Assembly: GCA_022647575.1 (NCBI GenBank)
Contig: JALCKY010000001.1
Span: 434,001 to 498,000, forward strand
DNA: 64,000 bases
DNA from: Lachnospiraceae bacterium
Lineage (GTDB): Bacteria; Bacillota; Clostridia; Lachnospirales; Lachnospiraceae
Direction: 5' to 3'
Numbering within the stretch: the first letter of the stretch is position 1; each line of letters opens with the position of its first letter. This document shows, piece after piece, positions 1 through 14,490 of the stretch. The position numbers and the translations under genes are program-made. The notes beneath the pieces are model-generated. The model was not told the DNA's origin and ran no database searches. It saw nothing but the letters and a program-made list of their open reading frames with translations.

Positions 1-1467
1 GCCCTGCTTCTTGCATCCTACTGGATCATCCTGCTGATTTCCCGGAAAGAATCACGGAGACGTTTTCTTCCGGTCATGCTTACCGCTGTTCTGTGCGCCG
101 AAATGCTGCTCATGAACAATGCCACGGTCAGCAGCCGCATTTATCTGACCCGCGAAGAATTTGAAAATGATTATTACAACGACGGGACTTCCGCAGCGGT
201 TTCCGATGTCTGTTCTGCGGATTCCTCCCTGTACCGGATACAGACCGAGCGTCAGATGGGAACCGGCTATGTCCTTCCGGCGACGCCCGACAAGATTTAT
301 GCAAATGAAGGAATGGTGGACGGCTATGCCTCCACGAACCTCTATTCCAGTTCCATTTCCGGAACGCTTTCCGGATACGGACGCACCTACGGCGTCACGC
401 AGTATTCCAACAACTTCTTTATTCTGGACAGCCTGAAGCAGTATATCCTCTCCACCCTGCTTTCCGGGAAATATGTGGTTGCCGATTCTTCGGACGGTTT
501 CTTCACCGGCGCGGACAGTTCGCTCTTTTCGCAGGCGGAGACCGGCGTCTCCGGCAAGACTGTTCTGGAAAATAAGAATGCCCTTCCGTTCGGATACCTT
601 TACACTAAAGAGATTCCGTCGGATACGCTCTCCGGCATGGACAGCAATGAACTTCTTCATGCCGTGACTTCCGCCTTCTTCTACACGGACGGCGGAACAG
701 GGAATGAGACGTCTCTGCCTGAAGCACAGGCTTCCGAAAATGACTCCGTCCGGCTTTCGCAGCTGCTTGCCGGAACGAATGACTGCACGGTCCAGGCGGA
801 CGGCGATACGCTGACGATCACCCCGACAGGCTCCGATCCCTATGCTGTCTTCACGGCGCCTTCCGCTTCCGAAAGCAGCGCTTATTTCCTGGAGCTGTCC
901 GGTGAGATTCCGGAAGGGACTTCATCCCTTTACCTTGCGTTCTTCGCAGCCGACTCTGCATATCCGGATTTCGGTCCCGGCTGTTTCCGCGACTGCACGC
1001 TGACACAGGCCTCAAAGGATCTCATGCTGCCTCTGCCGGAAGGGCTTACTTCTTTCCGGATTGACATTCCGGACAATGCCGGAAGCATCACGCTGAAAAA
1101 TGCCTGTCTCAGGTTACTGACTTCCGATGATTTTTCAGAACTTGCCTCGACCGATATTTCAGATATCTCTTTTGAAAAAAGCACTTACCGCGCATCCGTC
1201 GTCAGTACGGCGGATGAAGCGATGCTCTGCATCCCGCTTCCCTACTGTTCCGGCTGGAGCGCGACGGTCAACGGTGCCGCTGCCGATGTCCGGAACATCA
1301 ACGGAGGTCTCTGCGGAATCCTTCTCACCTCAGGCACTTCGGAAGTGACGATGACCTATCACGTGCCGCATCTCAAGACCGGTCTGGCGGTCAGCCTGAT
1401 TTCCCTGCTTGCTTTCGCGGTCCTGTATGCGGGATCTTTCCGGCGGAAGAAAACACCGGGTGTCTGA
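1..1467 (+). CDS. YfhO-family membrane protein, C-terminal part (5' end outside window)
   Basis: The reading frame is open from base 1, so only the last ~488 residues are present. What remains is a long extracytoplasmic region rich in Ser, Thr and Gly, then one hydrophobic helix just before a basic tail (RRKK), which is the layout of the YfhO C-terminus. YfhO proteins are multi-membrane GT-C-type glycosyltransferases; in Bacillus and Listeria they work with a CsbB/GtcA-type pair to glycosylate lipoteichoic acid. The gene converges with the GT2 glycosyltransferase at 1473-2450, separated by 5 bases. Such a partner is expected to supply the polyprenyl-phosphate sugar. Family assignment rests on the C-terminal half only; the membrane-rich N-terminus cannot be checked here. 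Confidence 0.65.
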   Translation, partial: ALLLASYWIILLISRKESRRRFLPVMLTAVLCAEMLLMNNATVSSRIYLTREEFENDYYNDGTSAAVSDVCSADSSLYRIQTERQMGTGYVLPATPDKIYANEGMVDGYASTNLYSSSISGTLSGYGRTYGVTQYSNNFFILDSLKQYILSTLLSGKYVVADSSDGFFTGADSSLFSQAETGVSGKTVLENKNALPFGYLYTKEIPSDTLSGMDSNELLHAVTSAFFYTDGGTGNETSLPEAQASENDSVRLSQLLAGTNDCTVQADGDTLTITPTGSDPYAVFTAPSASESSAYFLELSGEIPEGTSSLYLAFFAADSAYPDFGPGCFRDCTLTQASKDLMLPLPEGLTSFRIDIPDNAGSITLKNACLRLLTSDDFSELASTDISDISFEKSTYRASVVSTADEAMLCIPLPYCSGWSATVNGAAADVRNINGGLCGILLTSGTSEVTMTYHVPHLKTGLAVSLISLLAFAVLYAGSFRRKKTPGV

Positions 1468-1472
1468 TCCGC

Positions 1473-2450
1473 CTATTCATTGACAGGGGTATTGTCCTCG
1501 AAATTGATGCGCTCCTCTTCCACGACCAGAGGCCGGTCCAGGACGCGCGCATTGATGGAAAGGATGTATTCTCCCAGAAGTCCGATGAAGAAAATCTGCA
1601 CCGCCCCGAGGAAAAACATGCCGATCAGCACCGGAGCCATTCCGGCCCGGAACCAGTCCCAGAAAATCAGCTTCAGGATCAGATAGACGAGCCCGATCAG
1701 AAGACTGACCGCCCCGATCCCGAATCCGATGAACGTCGCGACACGCAGCACCACTTTCGAATAGGAGGTGATGCCGACCATCGCCACGTCATAGAGGCTG
1801 TAGAAATTGTTCTTGCTCTTTCCGGCCTTCCTCTGCGGACGTTCGTACGGGATTGCTGCATAATCGTATCCCAGTTCGGCGATCATTCCGCGCAGGTACG
1901 GCTGCGGATCATGGATCTTGCGCACGATGTCGACAAAATCCTTATCATAGAGTCCGAAGCCGGTGAAGTTTTCAATGTGTCCGATGTCGGTGATTTTCCG
2001 CAGGATCCGGTAATACTGTCTTCTGACCCAGGCCATGAATCTTCCTTCATCGGTCTTTGATTTCACGCCGATGACGATTTTCGAACCCTTTTCCCATTCC
2101 CGGACGAACCGGGGAATCAGTTCCGGAGGATCCTGAAAGTCCGCGTTCAGACGGATGACGCAGTCGCCGTACGCCTGCTTGAGCCCGTGGACCGGAGAAC
2201 GGAGCTGGCCGAAATTCCTCGCGTTGAAAATCGCCTTGACGTTCGGGTTCTGCGCGCAGATTTCCCGCAGTTCCTTTCTCGTCATGTCCTTGGAATGATT
2301 GTCGATGTAGATGATCTCATAATCATACTGCGGAAGCTGCTGCGTCATGATTTTCGTGACCGCTTCCGTCATCGGCCCTACATTTTCCTGCTCATTGTAA
2401 GTCGGAATGACGACTGAGATTTTCTTTCTCCGAACGGAATCGTCTTTCAT
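1473..2450 (-). CDS. Family 2 glycosyltransferase with C-terminal membrane helices (CsbB/GtrB/DPM1-like)
   Basis: A 325-residue protein. The GT-A start (VVIPTYNEQENV) lies near residue 12 and the DxD-type LNADFQDPPEL near residues 101-110. Two hydrophobic helices follow in the last ~100 residues, then the end motif GEYILSINARVLDRP. Enzymes of this build transfer a sugar from a nucleotide donor to undecaprenyl phosphate at the inner face of the membrane. The start at 2450 is chosen because its ATG overlaps the stop of the upstream TPP-enzyme gene (ATGA), the same coupling used elsewhere in this cluster; a longer frame to 2627 would run deep into that gene. It is the last gene of the minus-strand sugar cluster and converges with a YfhO-type transferase, a known functional partner. 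The sugar is not readable from sequence. Confidence 0.85.
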   Translation of the reverse strand: MKDDSVRRKKISVVIPTYNEQENVGPMTEAVTKIMTQQLPQYDYEIIYIDNHSKDMTRKELREICAQNPNVKAIFNARNFGQLRSPVHGLKQAYGDCVIRLNADFQDPPELIPRFVREWEKGSKIVIGVKSKTDEGRFMAWVRRQYYRILRKITDIGHIENFTGFGLYDKDFVDIVRKIHDPQPYLRGMIAELGYDYAAIPYERPQRKAGKSKNNFYSLYDVAMVGITSYSKVVLRVATFIGFGIGAVSLLIGLVYLILKLIFWDWFRAGMAPVLIGMFFLGAVQIFFIGLLGEYILSINARVLDRPLVVEEERINFEDNTPVNE

Positions 2451-4291
2451 CTGGTTTCCTCTTCCCCGGTAAGCTCGATTTTCATATTGGCTTTCAGCTC
2501 TTCCCTTGACAGGAACGGCGACATGTCCTCCAGCGGAGACGAAACCATGGTTCCGTCCATGAGTCTTCTGGACGAAGCCTTCGGCTCGGTCATCTGGAGA
2601 GGCGAGACGTGCACCCCGATCAGGCAAGGCGTCGCTATGGCTGCTGCCTTTTCCACATCTGCCTTCATTGTAGCATTCGAGGTACAGCTTGTATAGTTCA
2701 GTCCGAACGCATCCGCGATCCGTGACAGGTCCGGGAAACTCAGGTCTCCGCTTTCCGGGCCGATGCCGGCATAATGTCCGCCGAAGAAATTCTTCTGCGT
2801 CTGGCGGATGGAATGATAGCCTCCGTTTTCAATCACGAAAATGCGGACCGGGAGTTTTCCTCCCGCGATGGTCTGCAGCTCCTGCAGGTTCATCATGAGA
2901 CTTCCCTCGCCGGTCACCAGCGTCACCGGACGTCTTCCTTCGGAAATGCAGATGCCGATGGAAGCCGGCAGTCCGTATCCCATCGAAGCCGTCTGCGAAT
3001 TCGTGAAGAAGCGCTGTCCCTCCTTCACGCGGAACGCCTGCGTCCCGGCGACGCGCGACGTGCCGCAGCTGACGACCAGATCTTCATCCGCCGGCAGTAC
3101 CTCCGAAAGGGCATCATAGAAAGCGTAGAGATTTCCTCTTCCGTCCTGCTGCTCCGCTTTTTCTTTTTCCGTCACCGCAGGATATTTCTTCTTCCACTTC
3201 GCGCAGCAGGCATTCCACGAAGCATCCGTGAACAGGGGATGCTCTTCGGACACGCCCGACCGGAGCAGGGCATCATTCATTTTCCGGATCAGCTCCGCCG
3301 CATCGCCGATGACCGGCAGGCTGACATGCAGATTCGGTTTTCTCAGTTCCGCCGGATCCAGATCGTTCAGGATCGTGTAGGCCTCCCGTGCCCAGTCCTT
3401 ATAATCGAAGCCCGTCTGCGAAAGGGACTGGCGGCTCCCGAGCGACAGATAGACATCGGAATTCTGCAGGGCAAAATTTCCCGCCCGTCCGGCAGCCACC
3501 CCGCTGACGCCTGCATAATGAGGGTCCGCGTACGGAAGCAGGTCGACGCTCGAAGACCCGACTGTAACGGGTATGTTCAGAAGACGCACCAAACGGCGGA
3601 AGTCTTCATAAGCACCGGAAGCCCGGACGCCGAAGCCTGCAAATAAGACCGGCCGTTTCGCCTCTTTGATTTTCGCAAGAATCTTCTGCACGGTTTCATC
3701 GGGAACCGGCTGCGGAACTTCAAAAATATCCTCTTTCGGATCATAGGCAGGAAGGGACTCCGGATCGATCTGCGCAGACTGGATATCCAGCGGAATGTCC
3801 AGCCATACCGGACCCCGGCGTCCCGTCACGGCAAGATAAAGAGCCCTTTCCAGCTCGTGCCGGATCTCCTCTTTCCTTTCCACCATCTTCGCGTATTTCG
3901 TCATCGCCTGCGAAGCCTTCGTGATGTCATATTCCTGGATTCCCATCGTGCGGATCGGCAGATGCGTGCTGCGCACCGTGACCGCCGTCCTCACCTGACC
4001 GGAAACCACGATCATCGGAATCGACTCCATCCAGGCACACAGAACACCGGTCAGCGCGTTGACCGCTCCCGGTCCGCTCGTCACGCAGACCGCTGCGGGG
4101 CGGTTCTCCACGCGGGCATAGGCTTCCGCCGCCATGGCGCAGGCCTGTTCATGATGCTGGTAGAGGCAGTGCATTCTGCTGCGTGCGAAGGAATCATTGA
4201 GATACATCGCGCCGCCGCCCGTCACGGTAAAGACATCCGTGATGCCGCTGTCCGCCAGCTTCTCCGCTATGTAATCCGATACACGAATCAT
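2447..4291 (-). CDS. Thiamine-diphosphate enzyme of the acetolactate-synthase type (possible YerE-like branched-sugar enzyme)
   Basis: A 614-residue, three-domain TPP enzyme. The catalytic glutamate sits in HHEQA near residue 48, a central FAD/nucleotide-type domain spans about 200-350, and the TPP/metal motif is near 460-488 (GEGSLMMN ... IENGGYHSIRQTQ). The motif has GEG where most relatives have GDG. An anabolic acetolactate synthase is unlikely because no ilvN, ilvC or ilvD is nearby and the gene lies in a deoxysugar cluster with rfbF, rfbG and rfbH. The known enzyme of this type in that context is YerE of Yersinia, which uses pyruvate to add a two-carbon branch to CDP-3,6-dideoxy-4-keto-hexose. 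That role is an inference; a sugar or keto-acid decarboxylating role is also possible. It starts 2 bases after the CapK-like gene ends and overlaps the next gene by 4 bases. Confidence 0.8.
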   Translation of the reverse strand: MIRVSDYIAEKLADSGITDVFTVTGGGAMYLNDSFARSRMHCLYQHHEQACAMAAEAYARVENRPAAVCVTSGPGAVNALTGVLCAWMESIPMIVVSGQVRTAVTVRSTHLPIRTMGIQEYDITKASQAMTKYAKMVERKEEIRHELERALYLAVTGRRGPVWLDIPLDIQSAQIDPESLPAYDPKEDIFEVPQPVPDETVQKILAKIKEAKRPVLFAGFGVRASGAYEDFRRLVRLLNIPVTVGSSSVDLLPYADPHYAGVSGVAAGRAGNFALQNSDVYLSLGSRQSLSQTGFDYKDWAREAYTILNDLDPAELRKPNLHVSLPVIGDAAELIRKMNDALLRSGVSEEHPLFTDASWNACCAKWKKKYPAVTEKEKAEQQDGRGNLYAFYDALSEVLPADEDLVVSCGTSRVAGTQAFRVKEGQRFFTNSQTASMGYGLPASIGICISEGRRPVTLVTGEGSLMMNLQELQTIAGGKLPVRIFVIENGGYHSIRQTQKNFFGGHYAGIGPESGDLSFPDLSRIADAFGLNYTSCTSNATMKADVEKAAAIATPCLIGVHVSPLQMTEPKASSRRLMDGTMVSSPLEDMSPFLSREELKANMKIELTGEEETR

Positions 4292-4293
4292 TT

Positions 4294-5625
4294 TCAGCCT
4301 CCGGCCTGTCCCACATATTTTTCGCAGCGGTTCTCACAGACCATCGTCTTTCCCGACTGCTGGATGGGGAGCTCGTCCGCATAATCCACGCTGACTTCAG
4401 CGTCCTCTCCCAGATATTTCTTATAGGCGGCAACGACTTCCTCTTCATGAAAATCCTTGCCCGGATTGATGGTCAGCGTATATTTCTTCAGATCGGTCTG
4501 CACGCATTTTGCCTGCAGGACTTTCCCTTCAAAATTGAGAAGCGTATTCATGAAGACGTGAATGGAAAGCGGTTCGCCCTTCGTGTTGTAGAGAAGAGAG
4601 CCTCTCCGCCCGTAAATCTCCGTCAGCTTCGCGTGGCTGCGTCTCCGGGCATCCTTCCACGTTTTCATCTTCCCGGTATCTCCCGTGTCATAGCGGATCA
4701 TCGGAAAAGCCTTGTTATAATAATCGGTGACGACGATGCGTCCGAGTTCTCCCTCCGCCGCCGGTTCATCCGAATCCATTTTCAGGATTTCCACGAAATA
4801 ATTATACAGGTCGACCGTATAGTCCTCTTCTCCCGGAAGGCTTACGGCAATAAAACCGTTTTCATTGTTTCCGTAGGAAAGCACCGGCGTGATGCCGAGG
4901 ACCTCCTGCGCCAGGGCACGCGTTGCCGCCGGACAAGCCTCGCCCATCGTAAAGATCATCTCGACCTGCCATTTCGAGGTGTCGGCCGGTTCCCTTTTCA
5001 GGTACTGCGTCAGGGCAGTCAGGGCGCTCGAATACATGACGAGCACCTGGATTCCGTCCTTTTCTATGCGGCTGCAGATATCCTTCAGGGCGGCATCGCC
5101 CATATTGGAAATGTCGTACATCTTCAGGTTGTTTTTAAAGGAATGCCATCCCGTGATCGTGTTCTTCCCTTTGATCCATGCACGGAATTCAGCTCTCTTC
5201 ATGCCGAGGCGGAATCCGTTGAGCTCCATGACCGACATGAAGTTCATGAAGACATGGTTCATTTTCTCGGGGTCGGCAAGCACGGTGAACGGCGTCCCCG
5301 TCGAGCCGCTGGTCGACAGCTTCGTCAGCTGTTCCCGCCAGGGGCGGAACTCATCCGACAGGACCGTCTCGTAATGGGAAATGAAATCGCTTTTATTCTG
5401 AACCGGGAAATCCTTCAGTTCTTTCGATTTTTTCAGTCCTCGGTAGAACGGGCACTCCCGCGCCGCGTAATCGAGGATCAGGGACAGACGTCTTTCCGCA
5501 TACTCCTCCGTCACGCCTTCGACGATTTCCCTCTTGTTGACTTCCAGAAGCTTATTCAGTTTTCCGCCGCGTACGGCATCCAGCGCATTGAAGGCGCTTC
5601 TTCTTACGATTTCTCCGAACTGCAT
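4294..5625 (-). CDS. CapK-like adenylate-forming enzyme (phenylacetate-CoA ligase family)
   Basis: A 443-residue ANL-superfamily protein. The AMP-binding P-loop TSGSTGTPF is near residues 103-111 and the Y/R-rich acceptor region (RIVVTDYYNKAFPMIRYDTGD) near 305-325, which are standard for CapK/PaaK relatives found in capsule loci. These enzymes activate a carboxylic acid as acyl-AMP; the acid and acceptor are unknown. The start at 5625 (MQFGEIVRR) matches the N-terminus of the paralogous domain at 6817-8229 and overlaps the flippase 3' end by 22 bases. A longer frame to 5793 lies inside the flippase and is rejected. Together with the fused copy it gives the cluster two such enzymes, which suggests acylation or amidation of the sugar. 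Confidence 0.85.
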   Translation of the reverse strand: MQFGEIVRRSAFNALDAVRGGKLNKLLEVNKREIVEGVTEEYAERRLSLILDYAARECPFYRGLKKSKELKDFPVQNKSDFISHYETVLSDEFRPWREQLTKLSTSGSTGTPFTVLADPEKMNHVFMNFMSVMELNGFRLGMKRAEFRAWIKGKNTITGWHSFKNNLKMYDISNMGDAALKDICSRIEKDGIQVLVMYSSALTALTQYLKREPADTSKWQVEMIFTMGEACPAATRALAQEVLGITPVLSYGNNENGFIAVSLPGEEDYTVDLYNYFVEILKMDSDEPAAEGELGRIVVTDYYNKAFPMIRYDTGDTGKMKTWKDARRRSHAKLTEIYGRRGSLLYNTKGEPLSIHVFMNTLLNFEGKVLQAKCVQTDLKKYTLTINPGKDFHEEEVVAAYKKYLGEDAEVSVDYADELPIQQSGKTMVCENRCEKYVGQAGG

Positions 5626-6816
5626 ATTTTCTTCCTTCCGGCATTGATCATGCCAAGCAGCAGCACGGCGGCGACGCGGGCTGCATTTGCGATCAGGACA
5701 GCTGATGCAAACGCCGTGATGCCTCCGCCGAGCATTGCAAAGATCAGGATCATCAGCAGTGCCAGATGCGCGCACTGCAGGATCAGCTGCCATTTCTCAT
5801 CCGTGAACGTCAGCACGATGATAAAAAGATAGGCCGAGAGCATGGCCAGAATCTGCGTGATGTTGACAACGGTAATCAGCGGTCTGACCGCATCCGCCAG
5901 ATCCGGATAAAAAATACGGATGAACCACGGCGTCACGATTTCACAGAACAGAAAGAACACGGCACTGACGCCCAGTCCGATTCCGGAATACAGCATGAAT
6001 TTCTTCCGGGTCAGATACACCTTTTCTTTCGTCAGGTACGAAATAATGATCGTGTTGACCGGCGCAATGAACAGCACCAGCGTCTTGCCGATGAGCGAGA
6101 CGACATAGTACTGCGTGACCGCCGTGCCGCCCAGGGTATTCTTGAGAATCAGGCGGTCGATGTTGAGCGTCAGATTCGTGACCGTATAGGACATGACCAG
6201 AAGGAACCCCTTGCTGAGCACGATCCGGAAATCGGGCGAGGTCCGGAAGAAATTCCGGAAAATGCTTCCCGTTGCCGTCACGTAAACGAGGGCTGCCGCT
6301 TCCCCCGATCAGGAAAATAAAGAACCAGTTTCCCGTCACCCGGTAGAGGAAATAACCCGCCAGGTATCCCAAACCGATCAGCAGATAATAAATAAAATAC
6401 CGCCGGTAGTTCAGGGAAAGACGGTATTCCACATCTCCGTAATACCGGAAAATCGTAATCAGCAGAAGAACCGCCGTCAGGAGATAGGACCAGAACCCAA
6501 AAATGGAAGACGTCGAAATCAGCAGCGCGGCCGCAATGCCGACCGCCGAAAACAGCAGGATCGTCCTGTCGTAATCCCCGTTGCTGACGTCATGCTCCCT
6601 GCGTACGACCAGACGGCTGGTATTCAGTGCCTGTCCGACCGAAGGTCCCAGGATGCTGACCAGTCCCGTGATGTACAGAACCGTGCCGATGGCCTCGGTA
6701 CCCATTTCCGCATTGAGCCTGGGATAGATAAAAAGCTGGAGAACTCCGTTCAGCACCAGCGCTCCGGCAATGGTCCAGGCTGTATTTCCTAAGATTTTCT
6801 TTTTCTTTGCATTCAT
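5604..6816 (-). pseudogene. Polysaccharide flippase (Wzx/MurJ-like), frameshifted, fused to upstream ligase
   Basis: The first half begins at ATG 6816 (MNAKKKKILGNTAWTIAG) and the second half ends at 5604. Together they give about 403 residues with some ten hydrophobic helices, as in Wzx-type lipid-linked oligosaccharide flippases. The frame breaks at a run of five C on the plus strand (6302-6306). Removing one base restores FLIGEAAALVYVTATG, so a single-base insertion is evident. There is no stop codon between the upstream ligase and ATG 6816, so the flippase is either the C-terminal domain of an ~870-residue fusion or is translated from an internal start with a weak AGGCAGG site. The break may be a sequencing error, since three neighbouring genes have similar breaks, or a real inactivation. 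Confidence 0.75.
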
Positions 6817-8229
6817 GGCCTGCCTGCTGCCTGCCGGTCTTTCATCCGTCCGCTCTGCCTGTCCTTTTTCTTCCGCAGCCTTTCCGGATGCCGCGGAATT
6901 TTTCTTCTGATACTCCGGGCAGAGGTTCTCGATATATTTTCGCTTTCCGGAAGCCAGCACGGGAATCTCGTCGACATAGGAAACGCGGATCTCCGCATCC
7001 TTTCCCAGGGTGGGGCGGATGCGCCCGATCATATCCTCCGCATCCATTTTCCCGCGGTCTCCGTTCAGCCGGAGCTCATATTCCTTCCGGCCAAGCTGCA
7101 GGAAACGGAACTGTTTCACGCCTTCGACATTCCACAGATTATTCGTAATCAGATACGGAGTGACCGCATTTCCTTCCGTATCATAGATCAGGTCGGAACG
7201 GCGCCCGTAGAGTTCCTTCAGGATCAGGCGCGTCCTGCCGTTCTTCTCCTGATGGCGTGCCACTGCCATATCGCCGTTGTCGTACCGCAGGATCGGAAAA
7301 GCATAATTCGTCAGATCCGTGATGACGATTCTGCCGAGCTCCCCGTCCGGTGCCGGTTCATCCGAATCTGTCCGCAGGATCTCATAATAATAGCTTTCGG
7401 AATTGATGTAATATTCCTCGCTGTCATCACGGATCTGGATGCCCATGATTCCGTTTTCTTCATTGGAGTACCAGGAGCGGACCGGACAGTCAAACTGTTC
7501 GGATATCCTTTTCCTCACGCCCTGCGGCATCGTTTCCGAAATCGGGATCACGGAACAGACCGTGAATTTTTTCAGGTCATAGCCGCTCCGGTCCAGATAG
7601 GCGCTCAGCTCCCCGAGTGCGGAAGAATAGCCGACCAGGCTTTTGACTTTCTGATCTGCGATGGTATCCGCCATCTTCTTCAGCGATTCATCGCTCAGGG
7701 AAGAACTGTCCATCATGATGCTGTTTTCCATCAGAAGGCGGAGGGAGCTTTTCTTCACGTTCGAAACCCAGACGCGGATAAAAGCCTGCTTCTGTCCGAT
7801 CCGGTAATTTCCCAGAGTCCCCATGAAAATAGAATCCGCCGTGTTGCAGCGGATTTTTCCGGGGTCCTGAATCATGGCAAACGGAGTTCCCGTGGAGCCG
7901 GAGGTTGTCATGGTGCGGCAGCCTTTTCCGTCGAGGTAATCCGAAGAAAGGAATTCCCGGTAATGTTCCCGGAAGGTATCCTTGTTGACGACCGGCAGTT
8001 CCGAAAGCGGGACTTCCGGATCATAGTTCTTATAGTACGGTGCTGTCGAAACCGCATGGCGGATCAGCGCCCGGATTCTTTTCTCCGTCTCTTCTGCCGG
8101 GGTACCGTGCCGGAAGGCATCCTCATCGCTTCGAAAGCGTGCGGCAGCTTTTCCGCCCCGCAGGCCGTCCAGTGCAAAATAGACATCCCATCTGAGTTTT
8201 TCTCCGAAAGAACGGCTGCTTTCCCTCAT
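6817..8229 (-). CDS. CapK-like adenylate-forming domain at N-terminus of fused reading frame
   Basis: This is the N-terminal ~471 residues of a reading frame that stays open to 5941. P-loop MTTSGSTGTPF lies near residues 105-115, and EELGRIV-type and FPILRYDNGDM motifs lie near 315-335. It is a paralogue of the protein at 4294-5625 with the same layout. After about residue 445 comes a hydrophilic Ala/Glu/Arg-rich linker (AASGKAAEEKGQ...) and then, with no stop, the flippase. The start ATG at 8229 overlaps the stop of rfbH (ATGA). The presumed chemistry is acyl-adenylate formation for a sugar modification; substrate unknown. The fusion to a flippase would couple a modifying enzyme to export, which I do not recognise as a standard architecture. 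Confidence 0.85.
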
Positions 8230-9569
8230 TGTTTTTTACTGCATGCCTCTCTGATTTTCTCTGCCATAAAGGCCAGCATCTCCTGCGTCATTCCCGGATA
8301 TACGCCGATCCAGAAAGCCCGGTTCATGATGGCATCCGTATGATCAAGGCTGCCGACGGTCCGGCACAGCTTCTGTGCCTGCGGATCTCCGACGAAGCAC
8401 GGATGCTTCGTCAGGTTTCCGGCAAACAGCATGCGCGTCTGGACTCCGGCTTCCTCCAATGTCCTGACAATCGTGCCCCTGTCTGTTCCCTCCCTGCAGA
8501 AAATCAGGAAGCCGAACCAGCAGGGATCGGAATCCGGACAGGCTTCCGGCAGAACGAAGCAGTCCTCCGTTCCTTCAAGCGCTTTCTTCAGAAAGGCAAA
8601 ATTTTCCCGCCTCCGCGACGCGAAAGCCGGAAACTTCTCAATCTGCGCGCAGCCGACAGCCGCCTGCATATCCGTTGCCTTCAGATTGTACCCGAAATGG
8701 CTGTAAACATATTTATGGTCGTACCCAAGAGGAAGTTCCCCGTACTGCCTGTCGAAGCGGTGTCCGCAGAAATTATCGTGTCCCGGAGGGCAGATGCAGT
8801 CGCGTCCCCAGTCGCGCAGGGAACGGATGATTTTATGCAGGAGCGGATCATTCGTATAGACGGCTCCTCCTTCTCCCATGGTCATGTGATGCGGCGGATA
8901 AAAACTGGAAGTCCCGATATCGCCGAACGTTCCCGTGAAGCGTGTCTCTCCGTCCAGCGTATAGGTGCTTCCCAGTGCATCGCAGTTGTCTTCGATGAGC
9001 CACAGTCCGTGCTTTCTGCAGAAGTCCCGGACCTTCTTCAGGTCAAACGGGTTTCCGAGCGTGTGCGCCATCATGACGGCACGCGTCCTGTCCGATAAAG
9101 CTTCCTCCAGCATCGAACAGTCTGCATTTCCCTGAGGGATCGTGACGTCGATAAAAACCGGACGGGCTCCGTACTGAAGAATCGGCGCGACCGTCGTCGG
9201 AAAACCGCAGGCGACTGTAATGACCTCATCCCCCGGCAGGATCCTCTTCTCTTTCAGCAGGGGGGAAGTCAGTGCAGAAAATGCAAGAAGGTTCGCGCTC
9301 GACCCCGAATTGACAAGGGAAACGAAGCGGACCTTCAGGTATTCGCCGAATTTCTTTTCGAATTCTTCCGTATATCTTCCGGCAGTCAGCCAGAATTCCA
9401 GAGAGGAATCCACCAGATTCATCATTTCCGCACGGTCATAGACCCTCGAAGCATAGGGGATGCGGTCGCCTGCCTGAAACGGCTTCCGTACATGGAAACG
9501 GTCGCAGTACTCTCCCGCTGCCTCCAGGATCTTCTTCCTTGCCTCTTCTTCCGACATTCCCTCAAACAT
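8226..9569 (-). CDS. rfbH: CDP-4-keto-6-deoxy-D-glucose 3-dehydrase (E1), iron-sulfur PMP enzyme
   Basis: A 447-residue DegT/StrS-fold protein. The usual PLP-binding lysine is replaced by histidine in SFYPPHHMTMGEGG (His near residues 226-228), which marks the dehydrase rather than an aminotransferase. The [2Fe-2S] ligand region GRDCICPPGHDNFCG is at about 253-267. The enzyme removes the 3-hydroxyl of CDP-4-keto-6-deoxyglucose, with electrons from a partner reductase (E3: RfbI/AscD/YerD). No E3 gene is visible here. Start 9569 is preferred: GGAGA lies 8 bases upstream and the gene overlaps the rfbG stop by 8 bases. A frame to 9611 would run further into rfbG. Coupled by ATGA to the next gene. 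Confidence 0.93.
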   Translation of the reverse strand: MFEGMSEEEARKKILEAAGEYCDRFHVRKPFQAGDRIPYASRVYDRAEMMNLVDSSLEFWLTAGRYTEEFEKKFGEYLKVRFVSLVNSGSSANLLAFSALTSPLLKEKRILPGDEVITVACGFPTTVAPILQYGARPVFIDVTIPQGNADCSMLEEALSDRTRAVMMAHTLGNPFDLKKVRDFCRKHGLWLIEDNCDALGSTYTLDGETRFTGTFGDIGTSSFYPPHHMTMGEGGAVYTNDPLLHKIIRSLRDWGRDCICPPGHDNFCGHRFDRQYGELPLGYDHKYVYSHFGYNLKATDMQAAVGCAQIEKFPAFASRRRENFAFLKKALEGTEDCFVLPEACPDSDPCWFGFLIFCREGTDRGTIVRTLEEAGVQTRMLFAGNLTKHPCFVGDPQAQKLCRTVGSLDHTDAIMNRAFWIGVYPGMTQEMLAFMAEKIREACSKKQ

Positions 9570-10631
9570 CAAAGTATTCTCCGATCTGACGGTCCAGACA
9601 TTCCCGGACATCTCCGCCGCCTATGCGCACCTTTTCCCACTCGCAGGTCTTTTCGACCGCCCTGCGGATATTCCACTCCGGCTTCCAGCCGAGCTCTTTC
9701 CGGATTTTGGTGCTGTCCAGCAAAAGGAACGCTGCCTCATGAGGCCCGGCATCTCCCTCCGTCCTCCAGGTCAGGGCTTCCGCTTCCGGCACATCCCTGT
9801 TCCAGAACTCGCAGAAATAATCCGCAAGGGTTCCCGTCGTCACGCAGTCGCCGCGTCCGGGACCGATGTTGTATTCTCCGCCAGCTTTCTGTCTTCTGCC
9901 TGCTTCTCACCCAGAAGCAGATAGGCGGAAAGAGGTTCCATCACGTGCTGGAACGGACGGATGGAATACGGGTTCCGCAGGATGATCGTTTTTTCTGCCT
10001 CGGCAGCGCGCACGCAGTCCGGCACCAGACGGTCTTCGGCAAAATCGCCTCCGCCGATGACATTGCCTGCACGGGCTGTCGAAACCGCACATCCGGAATT
10101 CAGGAAAAATGATTTCCGGTAGCTCTGCGTGATGAGATCGGAACAGGACTTGCTGTTGGAATAGGGATCATATCCGTTGAGCGGCCTGTCTTCCGTGAAA
10201 GCCTCCTTCGTCTCTTCATTCAGATAGACCTTGTCGGTCGTCACGTTCACGAAGGAGGAGACGCATTCCGTTTTCCGGATTGCTTCCAGCACATTGACCG
10301 TTCCCATGATATTTGTTTCAAATGTAAGACGCGGCTCCATATAGGAATAGCGCACCAGCGGCTGCGCTGCCAGATGGAAAATGACATCCGGCCGCACCTG
10401 GGCGATCAGCTCATTCAGATGCCCTTCATCCCGGACATCCCCGTAGATGGAATCCATGCCGTCCTCAATGGACGCCAGATTGAACAGGTTCGGTTCCGTC
10501 GGCGGCATGAGGGAATAGCCGACCACTTCCGCGCCGGCCTTTTCCAGGATCCGGCAGAGCCATGACCCTTTGAACCCGGTGTGCCCGGTAACCAGAACTC
10601 TCCTGCCTTTATAGAAAGATAAATCTGCCAT
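9562..10631 (-). CDS. rfbG: CDP-glucose 4,6-dehydratase, interrupted by a frameshift
   Basis: An extended short-chain dehydrogenase. The N-terminus has the NAD-binding VLVTGHTGFKGSWL (residues 11-24), and the N-terminal part carries the Tyr-x3-Lys equivalent (PYSNSKSCSD near residue 157). The N-terminal frame covers 10631-9840 and the C-terminal frame continues to 9562. Around 9877-9883 one base is missing: the sequence ends as KLAENTTS in one frame while the next frame reads GEYNIGPGRGDCVTTG, the family's conserved segment. The complete protein would be about 355 residues, the normal length. It makes CDP-4-keto-6-deoxy-D-glucose, the substrate of RfbH. It starts one base after the rfbF stop. 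The break is likely a sequence error because flanking pathway genes are intact. Confidence 0.9.
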
Positions 10632-10632
10632 T

Positions 10633-11409
10633 TCACCAGACCTTCCAGGGAGCTTCTCCGCTGTCCCACATTTTTTCCAGAGCTTCTTTTTCCCGCATGG
10701 TATCCATGCACTGCCAGAACCCGTGATGCCTGTAGGCGTTCAGTTCATTCCTGCGTGCACACTCCTCGAGCGGATACTGCTCGAACACGGTGTCATCATC
10801 TTCAATCAGATCCATAATTCCCGGTTCGGCCGCCATGAACCCGGCATTGACCCATCCGGAATTTTCACGGGTCTTTTCACGGAAATTCGTGACGATGCCT
10901 TCTTCATTGATCTCAACGGCACCGAATCTCCCACGCGGCTGGGCGCAGGTAACGGTAATCATCTGCTGATGCTTCCGGTGGAAATCCAGCAGGTCATCGA
11001 TATTCACATCCGCAACCCCGTCGCCGTAAGTCAGGAAAAACGGCTCGTTCCCGATGTAGGGAGCAATCCTTTTGATTCTCCCGCCGGTCATTGTATGAAG
11101 CCCGGTGTCCACGACCGATACTTTCCACGGTTCCAGTTTTTCCGTATGGATGATCGTCTCTTTTTTCCCGTCTGTAAAGTCAAAAGTAATATCGCTGTTA
11201 TAGAGATAATAATCCGCAAACCACTGCTTGATCACATCCTGCTTGTAGCCGCAGCAGATGATGAATTCGTTATATCCGTACTTTGAGAAAATCTTCATGA
11301 TATGCCAGAGAATCGGCTTTCCGCCGATTTCAATCATCGGCTTCGGACGGAAAAAACTCTCCTCGCTGATTCTCGTACCCAGGCCGCCGGCCAGTATCAC
11401 GACTTTCAT
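10633..11409 (-). CDS. rfbF: Glucose-1-phosphate cytidylyltransferase
   Basis: A 258-residue nucleotidyltransferase of normal length. The N-terminal signature VVILAGGLGTRISEES (residues 3-18) and FRPKPMIEIGGKPILWHIMK are typical of RfbF rather than RfbA/GalU. YGDGVADVNIDDLL near 129-142 contributes the metal-binding Asp, and the end GFWQCMDTMREKEALEKMW fits the family. It joins CTP and glucose-1-phosphate to give CDP-glucose, the first committed step for CDP-dideoxyhexoses. The ATG at 11409 overlaps the stop of the upstream carboxypeptidase gene by 4 bases, so translation of the sugar cluster seems coupled to it. Confidence 0.95.
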   Translation of the reverse strand: MKVVILAGGLGTRISEESFFRPKPMIEIGGKPILWHIMKIFSKYGYNEFIICCGYKQDVIKQWFADYYLYNSDITFDFTDGKKETIIHTEKLEPWKVSVVDTGLHTMTGGRIKRIAPYIGNEPFFLTYGDGVADVNIDDLLDFHRKHQQMITVTCAQPRGRFGAVEINEEGIVTNFREKTRENSGWVNAGFMAAEPGIMDLIEDDDTVFEQYPLEECARRNELNAYRHHGFWQCMDTMREKEALEKMWDSGEAPWKVW

Positions 11410-12840
11410 TTCCCATCCCTCCTCTTGTTCCTCATCGCCAGAATGATCAGGATCAGGCCGGCCGCAACGAATACCGCAAGAACGGCAATCGCAATCATGC
11501 CGGCAGAAATGCCGGAGACATTCTGCGAAGTCCCGCTTCCGGAATCAGCCGAAGCTGACGGATCTGCTGCTGAATCCTTCCCGGAATCCTGCGCCGCTTT
11601 GGAAGCCGCGGCATCGGAAGCAGCTTTGGACGCGGCAGCATCGGAAGCCGCCTTGGAAGCGGCAGCCTCGGAAGCCGCCACTTCATCCGCATACTTCTTT
11701 GCATTCTCCTGCGTCATGGTAAACCCGCCGACCGCCGTCTGGTCTCCGAAAATGTAGGTTGTCTGCAGGAGTTCGCCCAGGGAGGCATCCTTTTTCTCAT
11801 CCTGCTTTACGCCGCAGTCGTCAAGGGACGCATTCTGCGGAAGGATGACCGAGCCTCCGGAAACATTGTATTCCGTCTTTCCGACTGCCACTTTCTGGAA
11901 ATTGCAGAAGCCGTAATCCAGAAGCGCCACGTTGTCTTTCGCTGCATAGGAACCGTCCGTCGCATAAAGCGACACGGCAATCAGCGTCATTCCGTTTCTC
12001 TCCGCAAAGGTCGTCAGCGTGCTCTGCGCCAGATCCGTATAGCCGTTCTTTCCGCCGATGATGCCCGGATAGAAATAGTCCGGACTGACCAGCAGGGGAT
12101 CGTGGCTTGTCATGGACCGCTCCGTCGCCGTCATGTTCGTCGCCGGTATCGTATAAGTCGGCGTATTGACGATCGTGCGGAATTCATCGATTTTCAGTGC
12201 TGCCTGTGCAATCAGCGCAATGTCGTGCGCGGAAGAATAATGGTTCGGATCCGGCATGCCGCAGGCATTCGCAAAATGGGTGGACGTGCATCCGAGCTCT
12301 GCCGCCCTGTCGTTCATCATCTGGACAAAATGATCGATGGAACCGCCGCCGATGTATTCTCCGACCTGCGTCGCCATGTCATTCGCCGACTTCAGCATCA
12401 TTCCGTAAAGCATCTGCTCCAGGGTAAAGACCTCGCCGACCTGCGTGGAAAGATTCGAACTTCCGACTCCCACATAGGCGACTCCGGTCTGCGTCATGGT
12501 TACCTGATCGGTCAGCTTTCCGTTCTCAAGCGCCAAAAGACAGGTCATGATCTTCGTGATCGAAGCCGGGAACATCTGGGTATCCATCCCTTTGTTGTAA
12601 AGGGACCGTACCCGTATCCGCATCCATCAGGCAGGCGCATTTGGAATAAACATCTGCGGCCTGAGGCCATCCGGAAATGGCATTTGTCGTCACCGTCGCG
12701 GAATCTGCCGCCACAGAAGAAGTGCCCGACGCATCAGAGGTGTCCGCCGCTGCCGGAGAAGCGGCAGTGAGGACCATGCAGAATCCCGTGACCAGAGCAA
12801 GGAAAGCGGAAAGTAACTTTTTCGGCAGAAACTTTCCCAT
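11406..12840 (-). CDS. D-alanyl-D-alanine carboxypeptidase (DacF/PBP5-like), frameshifted
   Basis: A serine-type low-molecular-mass penicillin-binding protein. A signal peptide occupies residues 1-32. The motifs are SITK near 90-93, SAND near 152 and KNG (variant of KTG) in GGKNGYT near 263. The C-terminus has an Ala/Ser/Lys linker of repeated AAASKAASD units and a final membrane helix with a basic end, so it should be anchored outside the membrane. The N-terminal frame (from 12840) breaks near 12602-12604, a CCC run on the coding strand: one extra C turns TVLYNKGMDTQMF into a wrong frame, and the rest reads correctly to 11406. It trims pentapeptides in peptidoglycan. It starts directly after the HPr stop and overlaps rfbF by 4 bases. 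Confidence 0.88.
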
Positions 12841-13157: not shown

Positions 13158-14490
13158 TTACGATGCAGTCGATACAGCGGCAGAAATCGACGCAGGTCCG
13201 GCAGCTGCCGTGCCGATTTCAGAAAGCGTCGCATTCACGGTAACATCCTCGACCTGTTCATATCCGGAAGGCAGCGTAATGGCAACCGGCAGGGTATAGG
13301 TTCCCGCTTCCAGTCCGTTCAGGTCGACCGATGCCTTGATCTGATCCGTGCTCAGCGACTCCAGCTGCTCATCCGTACCCTTGACCCCGACGTCGATATT
13401 GGCAGTCGAGAAGACGCAGGTCAGGCCGGCACCCAGGTTCAGCTTCTGGATGGAAGTCGTCGCGATTTCATAGGATTTGCTGTTCAGCGGCAGGATCTCC
13501 ACGGAAATGACGACTGTATTGCTGATGCCGTTTGCCAGGAATACATTATCCGGAAGCATTGCCGAAACATCATCGACCTTGACGTCAAAGCTGCTGCTCT
13601 TGCCGCTGACATCGATGAGGCCCGAATCGATCGTAATCGTGTTGCCTTTATCCGCCAGGTTCTTCAGTCCTTCCGCCGTTCCGGCAACGGACAGCGAAGC
13701 CGGGGTTGCCGTCATCGAGGAGACCTGATAGCCTGCTGCCGGCTTTCCGGTATATTTCGGCACGTCAATGACCACATCGCTTACGACGGTATAAAGCGTT
13801 ACCGAAACCTGGATGTTCTTTGAATCGATGTCAAACTTCAGGTAATTCATCTCGGCATCCGTCAGTGCTTCCCCGTTCTTATCGTAAATGACCAGGCTTG
13901 TCGTGAAATTCGAATTCATGCTGATTCCCGTCACGTCGACCGGAGCAACCACCCTGTCGATCTTGTTGATGATCGAAGCCGGTCCGTAAATCGTCACCTT
14001 TTTCAGGCGAAGCCGTGACATTGCCGACCTGGTAGCCTTCCGCCGGCACCGTTGTGCCGCTGCTGCCCGTGATGACGAAATCCGAACTGATCATTTCTTC
14101 CAGCTCGATTTCGATCGTCGCCGGATTGGCTGTGATATTTCCCGCAGAGATTCCGTTTGCGGAGACACGGACCGGAACCGTAATCGGGTCGGAATTCATA
14201 TCGACGATTTCCGTCAGGTCCGCCGTGGCCGTAATGCTGTCCGCCGTCAGAGGCTCGACAACAGAACGGTTCCCGTGAACCGTCACGCTGACCGTCTCAT
14301 CGCCTTCCTTGACCTGATAGGACTGTCCCATGCTTTCGATGTAGGAAGCACTCGTAACCGTAACCGGCACATTGAAAATCGTCTTGGTAATGACCGGGTC
14401 GTTCACATTCACGATGATCAGCCAGACGAGAACCGCCAGAAGCAGCGAAGCGATCTTCAGTCCGGGATTACTCAGCAGTGTTTTTTTCAC
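13158..14490 (-). CDS. YbbR-domain protein (CdaR), regulator of diadenylate cyclase, frameshifted
   Basis: A membrane-anchored protein with one N-terminal helix (ASLLLAVLVWLIIVNV) followed by several YbbR repeats (VTVTSASYIE..., IYGPASIINKID...) outside the membrane. Two overlapping frames (14490-13879 and 14021-13158) together give ~443 residues. They join at 13999-14003, where a run of five T on the plus strand appears to carry one extra base: with four, TASPEKVTIYGPASII reads through. The start overlaps the cdaA stop by 23 bases, the conserved cdaA-cdaR arrangement of Firmicutes, where CdaR modulates CdaA. The C-terminus is Ala/Ser-rich. As a widely conserved gene it is more likely interrupted by a sequencing error than truly broken. 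Confidence 0.85.

Follow-up and report, generated by a model that had tools for sequence, protein, structure and literature searches.

In yersiniose A biosynthesis, a part of the O-antigen of Yersinia pseudotuberculosis, PMC12247030 describes a route to cytidine diphosphate (CDP)-4-keto-3,6-dideoxyglucose, after which a thiamine diphosphate (ThDP)-dependent enzyme, YpYerE, adds a two-carbon unit. PMC12188165 presents JanthE as a YerE-like enzyme coupling 2-oxo acids with ketones, and its acceptance of ketones in vitro is described both there and in PMC12247030. For actinobacterial antibiotics, a C-4 acetyl branch is attributed to the two-protein systems AviB1/AviB2 and Pau11/Pau12 (PMC4753412). 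Among transmembrane glycosylation systems, CsbB-GtcA-YfhO and GacI-GacK-GacL are presented as a GT-A polyprenyl-phosphate glycosyltransferase, a flippase of GtrA or Wzx type and a GT-C glycosyltransferase (PMC8035078). Here we analyse a 64,000-nucleotide stretch of a Lachnospiraceae genome (the window; bases 434001-498000 of contig C1 in GCA_022647575.1, a genome of 3.03 Mb in 11 contigs). At positions 1473-11409, on the minus strand, it carries an operon in the order rfbF-rfbG-rfbH-CapK1-flippase-CapK2-ThDP enzyme-GT2 (family 2 glycosyltransferase), and a YfhO gene converges on GT2.

We consider it probable (about 0.78) that this operon makes and exports a C-4-branched 3,6-dideoxyhexose. An earlier note on this DNA had listed rfbF, rfbG, rfbH, a thiamine diphosphate enzyme, two ligases, a flippase, a GT2 and a convergent YfhO within positions 1-11409, all of which are present, and had proposed a YerE-type branched 3,6-dideoxysugar for a surface glycan. 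Our results agree with this central proposal, as the ThDP enzyme lies outside the IlvB-type enzymes and tracks RfbH.

The ThDP enzyme groups with JanthE

A PDB search with the ThDP enzyme returned 8rph (JanthE) as the best match (E 3.4e-112), followed by 5ahk (1.8e-64), which we take to be PpYerE, and by acetolactate synthases at about 1e-58. Placement was decided by a 33-row tree built from 30 chosen rows of a larger tree, the two PDB chains and the matched stretch of L142; the larger tree serves only for motif spread and nearest relatives. In the 33-row tree the window enzyme, its clostridial relatives and JanthE form one clade (100/100), L147 and L148, two enzymes of the same family, join 5ahk (96/92), and four IlvB-type rows stand apart from both groups (100/99). 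An anabolic IlvB-type enzyme is thereby rejected by the tree, and the genome has a separate gene for a ThDP enzyme at C1:19587, 30% identical to the one studied here. Clustering with IlvB had been named earlier as one outcome that would speak against the proposal; the enzyme falls outside the four IlvB-type rows (AlsS was not a row of this tree). The likeness to YerE is upheld as to kind, with the difference that the nearest characterised enzyme is JanthE and not YpYerE.

Glu48, presumably the catalytic glutamate, is kept in all 103 aligned ThDP enzymes, and Asn489 is invariant in 13 of 13. In the ThDP motif of the window enzyme Gly-Glu-Gly (GEG) replaces Gly-Asp-Gly (GDG). In all, GEG is present in 23 of the 103 aligned sequences, 20 of them among the 21 rows of the window enzyme's clade and three elsewhere. 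The substitution apparently has more than one origin, a pattern that suggests tolerance and not loss of function. As a unique mark of the operon subtype with CapK genes it was rejected, being found also in L052, L059, L063, L083 and L090. By analogy with its characterised relatives, the window enzyme would accept ketones and form tertiary alcohols.

A plasmid search yielded 99 records, all below 60% identity; the 15 listed share about 30% identity and are, where annotated, of acetolactate-synthase type. Separately, a subclass of the ThDP enzyme whose open frame runs to 646-704 aa occurs in twelve loci (L171-L182), in most cases next to a short-chain dehydrogenase/reductase (SDR) and a GT2; rfbF, rfbG and rfbH are nearby in L179 alone, and the ten of these genomes that were checked all have RfbH elsewhere.

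The enzyme tracks RfbH across the Lachnospiraceae

We sampled 200 genomes of the family Lachnospiraceae, one per genus. Matches to the ThDP enzyme with E <=1e-60 were found in 88 genomes, of which 64 were kept at >=35% identity, a threshold at which the match E-values show a gap between 2e-101 and 5e-78. RfbH was found in 69 genomes: 60 have both proteins, 4 the enzyme only, 9 RfbH only and 127 neither (Fisher p = 4e-36, in a test that assumes independence of the genera, an assumption that does not hold). RfbH is therefore present in 60 of the 64 enzyme-bearing genomes. In 18 genomes rfbH was missing from the stretch fetched around the ThDP gene, and 16 of these have RfbH elsewhere, the other two being G002 and G138. 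Two of the nine RfbH-only genomes were fetched (G085 and G158), and both have a more distant ThDP gene in a locus with rfbF, rfbG, rfbH and an SDR; the G085 enzyme falls on the 5ahk branch of the 33-row tree.

The two genes are also neighbours. We collected 100 ThDP loci, namely the best 80 of 569 confirmed and 20 more, with at least two same-contig pairs among them (L069/L122 and L071/L121). The 59 loci with wide flanks contain rfbH in 39, an SDR in 40, GT2 in 48, rfbF in 33 and rfbG in 35, with rfbF, rfbG and rfbH together in 29, while each of these five genes is found in 0 of 12 ilvB-type control loci, hand-chosen from the genome matches. The rfbH gene is thus on the same stretch as the ThDP gene, up to about 10 kb away, in 39 of 59 loci compared to 0 of 12 controls. 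One metagenome-assembled Lachnospiraceae contig (L044) has the operon genes in the same order as the window. Loci L036 and L039, which represent cultured relatives such as Oliverpabstia intestinalis and Blautia caecimuris DSM 29492, hold nearly the same genes together with the SDR.

Because RfbH and the ThDP enzyme track each other from genome to genome, the acceptor of the enzyme is very probably the RfbH product, CDP-4-keto-3,6-dideoxyglucose, which is also the acceptor given for YpYerE (PMC12247030). In two contigs filed as archaeal (L079 and L088, from metagenome-assembled genomes of Methanomassiliicoccaceae) the gene for the ThDP enzyme lies close to rfbF, with rfbH present as well in L079; this suggests transfer or mis-binning.

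Layout of the locus

The features of the locus are collected in Table 1. The stop of the ThDP enzyme gene and the start of GT2, most likely at 2450, overlap as ATGA at 2447-2450. The start of YfhO falls beyond the window edge.

Table 1. Features of the proposed branched-sugar operon and of the convergent gene, in window positions
Feature	Position	Strand	Evidence
rfbF, glucose-1-phosphate cytidylyltransferase	10633..11409	-	TIGR02623 386 bits (cut-off 300); 72% identity to L044 rfbF
rfbG, CDP-glucose 4,6-dehydratase, N-terminal piece	9840..10631	-	TIGR02622 357 bits (cut-off 278); aligns with residues 32-288 of the L044 open reading frame
rfbG, C-terminal piece	9562..9843	-	TIGR02622 E 4e-11, profile positions 282-351; residues 293-383 of the L044 open reading frame
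rfbH, CDP-4-keto-6-deoxyglucose 3-dehydrase, E1 type	8226..9611	-	NF011936 700 bits (cut-off 423); PDB 3bcx E 4.5e-153
CapK1, PaaK-like ANL adenylate-forming protein	6904..8229	-	73% identity to L044 CapK1 over 442 aa; TSGSTGTP, YGRR and SGK stretches
Wzx-like MOP flippase, split near 6250-6281	5604..6816	-	the two pieces correspond to residues 1-189 and 179-394 of the unsplit copy in L044
CapK2, second PaaK-like ANL protein	4294..5625	-	68% identity to L044 CapK2; PF00501 below cut-off; ATG at 5625
YerE/JanthE-like ThDP-dependent carboligase	2447..4291	-	Pfam TPP N, M and C domains; PDB matches; tree
ThDP motif, Gly-Glu-Gly replacing Gly-Asp-Gly, residues 461-463	2903..2911	-	alignment
GT2 of GtrB/CsbB/PgfS kind, probable polyprenyl-phosphate sugar synthase	1473..2450	-	PF00535; NF047588 PgfS 178 bits (cut-off 500); phrog_841 GtrB-like E 1e-66
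Convergent YfhO-type GT-C gene, 3' part	1..1467	+	PF09586 E 5e-31; whole gene is L001 8692-11467, in two frames

Proposed pathway

Gene content and ancestry are what we observe; from them we infer the substrates, the order of steps, the acceptor and all of the chemistry. RfbF and RfbG would convert glucose-1-phosphate to CDP-4-keto-6-deoxyglucose, from which RfbH would strip the C-3 hydroxyl, taking electrons from a general donor of ferredoxin or flavodoxin type, with no dedicated E3 reductase. The ThDP enzyme would then decarboxylate a 2-oxo acid, most likely pyruvate, and transfer the acyl group to the keto carbon C-4, which would become a tertiary alcohol with an acyl branch. In most related loci a nearby SDR would reduce the branch ketone; in the window the branch probably stays unreduced, or else an unlinked enzyme reduces it. 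GT2 would load the sugar onto undecaprenyl phosphate (Und-P). The loaded sugar would be flipped outward either by the operon's own Wzx-like protein or by a GtrA protein from another locus, and YfhO or one of its paralogues, as the GT-C enzyme, would place it on a surface polymer or protein.

RfbH has the residues expected of its role, in line with the earlier note: histidines 241 and 242 occupy the site of the pyridoxal phosphate-binding lysine, the iron-sulphur cysteines are present and NF011936 is above its cut-off. The four cysteines are spaced C210-x61-C272-x-C274-x7-C282, which we take to be the E1 spacing plus a 4-residue insert, and the insert is visible when RfbH is aligned with 3bcx. 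PMC8987622 likewise mentions four cysteines surrounding the cofactor.

Predicted branch chemistry and the CapK pair

An SDR of about 307 aa is found in 65 of the 100 ThDP loci, often directly downstream. Two representatives reached no curated NCBIfam cut-off; reduction of the branch ketone is its likely job, by analogy with paulomycin, where the corresponding reduction is assigned to an aldo-keto reductase (PMC4753412). Among the 17 loci of the CapK clade, 10 have an SDR and 7 have none (L034, L035, L037, L040, L042, L044 and L113). The larger tree puts the window in a set of eight rows with an SDR in L033 only, six of the seven nearest relatives being without one. The window operon has no SDR besides rfbG, and the SDR of a relative used as a query against the genome gives only a partial match (E 7e-5). 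As the SDR is missing both from the window and from most of its nearest relatives, we predict an unreduced acyl branch.

A second module is a PF00682-type protein with a median length of about 534 aa, present in 19 of the 100 loci (L051, L058, L062, L079, L080, L081, L088, L096, L105, L106, L112, L124 and L126-L132), 9 of which also show rfbH. In L129, taken as a representative, the N-terminal half resembles 4-hydroxy-2-oxovalerate aldolase, with those models below cut-off. ErwE is described as preferring 4-hydroxy-2-oxo acids as donors (PMC12247030), and together with the aldolase-like gene this suggests that such loci may make longer branches. The window operon is without the aldolase-like gene.

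The two CapK proteins are separate paralogues. All 29 CapK members keep TSGSTG and SGK, and 28 of them keep YGRR; the family profile finds phenylacetate-CoA ligases (PaaK) in the PDB at 6.5e-20, and neither protein reaches an NCBIfam cut-off. CapK1 is present in 7 of the 200 genomes, each with a second, CapK2-like copy, and all 7 belong to the group of 60 that have RfbH together with the ThDP enzyme. Twelve of the 100 ThDP loci have two CapK genes, all with GEG, while L049 has CapK1 alone, with GDG. CapK1 thus marks one subtype of the operon. Our likeliest guess for the pair is that it activates an acyl group with which the sugar is decorated, and Pfam and NCBIfam searches of the operon proteins gave no evident acyltransferase, so direct ester formation by the CapK proteins is possible. 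The sugar may in this way be acylated as well as branched, a part of the proposal for which the CapK proteins are the sole basis.

The same two ANL proteins, with their motifs intact, could also be read as evidence for a sugar that is acylated and not C-branched. The CapK proteins would then supply the activated acyl group, the ThDP enzyme would belong to central metabolism, and the sugar would be, for example, an acylated paratose or abequose. We consider this very improbable. The ThDP enzyme lies outside the IlvB-type rows, follows RfbH between genomes and has a stop that overlaps the GT2 start; rfbG is the only SDR of the window operon, and the genome offers the relative's SDR nothing beyond the partial match given above. 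Moreover, CapK1 occurs in 7 of 200 genomes compared to 64 for the ThDP gene.

Evidence against the pathway and competing explanations

Several observations weigh against a branched-sugar pathway of the kind proposed. On the enzyme side, a tree forced to unite the window enzyme, JanthE, 5ahk and the clostridial rows, with L147 and L148 kept outside, is worse by 6.1 log-likelihood units (approximately unbiased test, p-AU = 0.057), so that an arrangement with the YerE-like enzymes as a single group is neither supported nor clearly rejected, and for JanthE itself PMC12188165 states that the physiological substrates are not identified. On the side of co-occurrence, four enzyme-bearing genomes lack RfbH, two of which (G002 and G138) are at least 94% complete, and the comparison of RfbH-only loci covers just two of nine genomes.

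A further point is the electron supply of RfbH. In the window genome a PF00970 search for an E3-type reductase gave no match, PF00175 gave a single match, in a protein of 261 aa that has a DHODB iron-sulphur domain, and the four Fer2 matches all lie at other places. The earlier note had found no E3 reductase in the window, and the genome-wide search it called for ends the same way. This outcome agrees with the first part of a second result that the note regarded as refuting its proposal, the other part being a wall free of dideoxysugar. Seven RfbH-bearing relatives were also searched with PF00970: five gave one match each, all frames of 264-304 aa with a DHODB iron-sulphur domain and no Fer2, and two (G026 and G062) gave none. 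An E3 partner combining Fer2 with a FAD/NAD reductase was thus found neither in the window genome nor in these seven relatives. A pathway broken by loss of E3 was rejected as an explanation, since the RfbH-bearing relatives likewise hold only DHODB-type proteins. We read the shared lack of E3 as use of a different electron donor, for which SpnQ offers a precedent: it is described as E3-independent, running with ferredoxin or flavodoxin and their reductases (PMC8987622). By this analogy the missing E3 would be compatible with a working pathway.

Three of the nine genes of the locus are in two frames: rfbG, the flippase and YfhO (L001 8692-10164 and 9341-11467). The earlier gene list was right as to the genes present and had overlooked these splits. 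They could mean that the locus is decaying and the pathway dead in this strain, which we think improbable. In L044, with the same gene order, all three genes are intact, and the pieces in the window, searched separately as read with no frame repaired, jointly span nearly all of each intact protein, as expected from small assembly indels. The nearby YbbR gene (13158-14490) is also split, both of its pieces matching PF07949, and the Peptidase_S11 gene (11406-12840) seems to be, its 104-aa first piece matching no family; presumably these are cdaR and dacA, the domain searches giving only YbbR and Peptidase_S11. Such neighbours are a sign of indel errors in this assembly, which are the best account of the split frames. 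CapK1 and the flippase share one open frame in the window; a true fusion as a feature of the operon type was rejected, since L044 has two separate genes.

The last point concerns export. The earlier note had paired GT2 with YfhO in the manner of CsbB and YfhO, and both genes are present, with YfhO belonging to the neighbouring operon. Proteins of GT-A, flippase and GT-C kinds are all found at the locus, with the third at the end of a separate, convergent operon that also holds wecE and an Und-P-type GT2 of its own. The GT2 of the proposed branched-sugar operon matches PF00535 and phrog_841, with PgfS as its best NCBIfam model and no equivalog at cut-off. For the flippase, Pfam gave no match even with the intact L044 copy, and a PDB sequence search with its profile found nothing. 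A structural model of the L044 protein (mean predicted local distance difference test score 86.9) is most similar to WzxE (TM-score 0.76-0.78), followed by MATE and MurJ structures, which suggests a Wzx-like protein of the MOP fold. Wzx-type flippases such as GacK are proposed in transmembrane glycosylation systems (PMC8035078).

These features leave room for a different use of the sugar, in which a cytoplasmic glycosyltransferase would build the branched sugar nucleotide into a Wzx/Wzy-type repeat unit, and GT2 and YfhO would serve another sugar, such as the WecE product. A Wzx-like flippase in the operon, a YfhO that sits with wecE and its own GT2, and the three YfhO loci and two GtrA genes of the genome all fit such an arrangement. 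Scored by length and hydropathy alone, a large multi-helix, GT-C-like protein lies directly after GT2 in only 18 of the 52 scored loci, and within three genes in 26. Nevertheless, GT2 is present in 48 of the 59 wide-flank loci, and in the window its start codon overlaps the stop of the ThDP gene. Of the 14 CapK-type loci that extend 4.5 kb or more beyond GT2, 12 have such a protein directly next to it, and three of these are YfhO-like; in L117 the YfhO-like protein is on the same strand and overlaps the GT2 frame. We hold the Wzx/Wzy alternative to be unlikely but worth keeping in mind, and prefer loading of the branched sugar onto Und-P by GT2. Since YfhO ends an operon with a GT2 of its own, its pairing with the window GT2 is uncertain, though plausible.

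The neighbouring operon (L001:4298-11467) lies mostly outside the window. It encodes the Und-P-type GT2, a 353-aa protein, an ATP-grasp ligase, a WecE-type transaminase (PRK11706, 611 bits) and YfhO, and likely makes a second surface sugar based on dTDP-4-amino-4,6-dideoxygalactose.

Discussion

Pathways of this kind are known. The present variant is set apart by its spread in the Lachnospiraceae, by the link between RfbH and an enzyme of JanthE type, by the lack of both an E3 and an SDR, and by the CapK pair. In the open-access papers searched, C-branched dideoxysugars are reported from Gram-negative O-antigens, mycobacteria and actinobacterial antibiotics. Searches of the same literature for clostridial CapK in polysaccharide loci, RfbH, YerE and the GEG motif returned nothing pertinent (the main survey of YerE-like enzymes lies outside that scope), and neither did a search on branched dideoxysugars and Eubacterium saburreum for Clostridia.

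If the proposed pathway is correct, branched dideoxysugars would be a common surface sugar of the Lachnospiraceae, with RfbH and the ThDP enzyme in 60 of the 200 sampled genera. It would further point to an acceptor for ThDP enzymes of the JanthE branch and bring a new class of donor to polyprenyl-phosphate glycosylation systems. The operon would also be a tractable example in which to find the function of CapK-type proteins in polysaccharide loci. A wider generalisation is possible but doubtful. Throughout the family, the CDP-3,6-dideoxyhexose route might nearly always lead to a C-branched sugar whose synthesis does without E3 and which is loaded onto Und-P as a single unit. The branch would be set by the module present: reduced where there is an SDR, longer and hydroxylated where there is an aldolase of 4-hydroxy-2-oxo-acid type, and left as an unreduced acyl group in the CapK subtype of the window, where the two ANL proteins would in addition acylate the sugar directly.

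Comparison with known systems

The closest solved relative of the window enzyme is JanthE of Janthinobacterium sp. HH01 (8rph), with a near full-length match and a place in the same clade (100/100). JanthE has Cys-Asp-Gly where the window enzyme has GEG, and it comes without an assigned natural acceptor, whereas the RfbF, RfbG and RfbH of the window suggest one. The pathway that is most alike is that of yersiniose A, in which CDP-4-keto-3,6-dideoxyglucose is likewise followed by a ThDP enzyme. The window differs from it in belonging to a Firmicute, in the E3 that was not found, in an operon without a ketoreductase, in a GT2 of polyprenyl-phosphate type and in the CapK pair; its enzyme is nearer to JanthE than to 5ahk, YpYerE itself not being among the tree rows. 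AviB1/AviB2 and Pau11/Pau12 are similar in making a C-4 acetyl branch in Gram-positives. They are, however, two-protein systems of antibiotic clusters, whereas the window has a single chain in a surface-glycan operon, a distinction drawn from their description and not from sequence.

PgfS, PgfM1 and PgfM2 of streptococci are a protein glycosylation system. The Pgf models are the best in NCBIfam for the window GT2 (178 of 500 bits) and for the L044 YfhO (70 of 1500 bits), both far below cut-off. Compared to the CsbB and Gac systems, the donor in the window would be a CDP-branched dideoxysugar, while rows for transmembrane systems in Table 1 of PMC8035078 name Gal, Glc, GlcNAc or unknown sugars.

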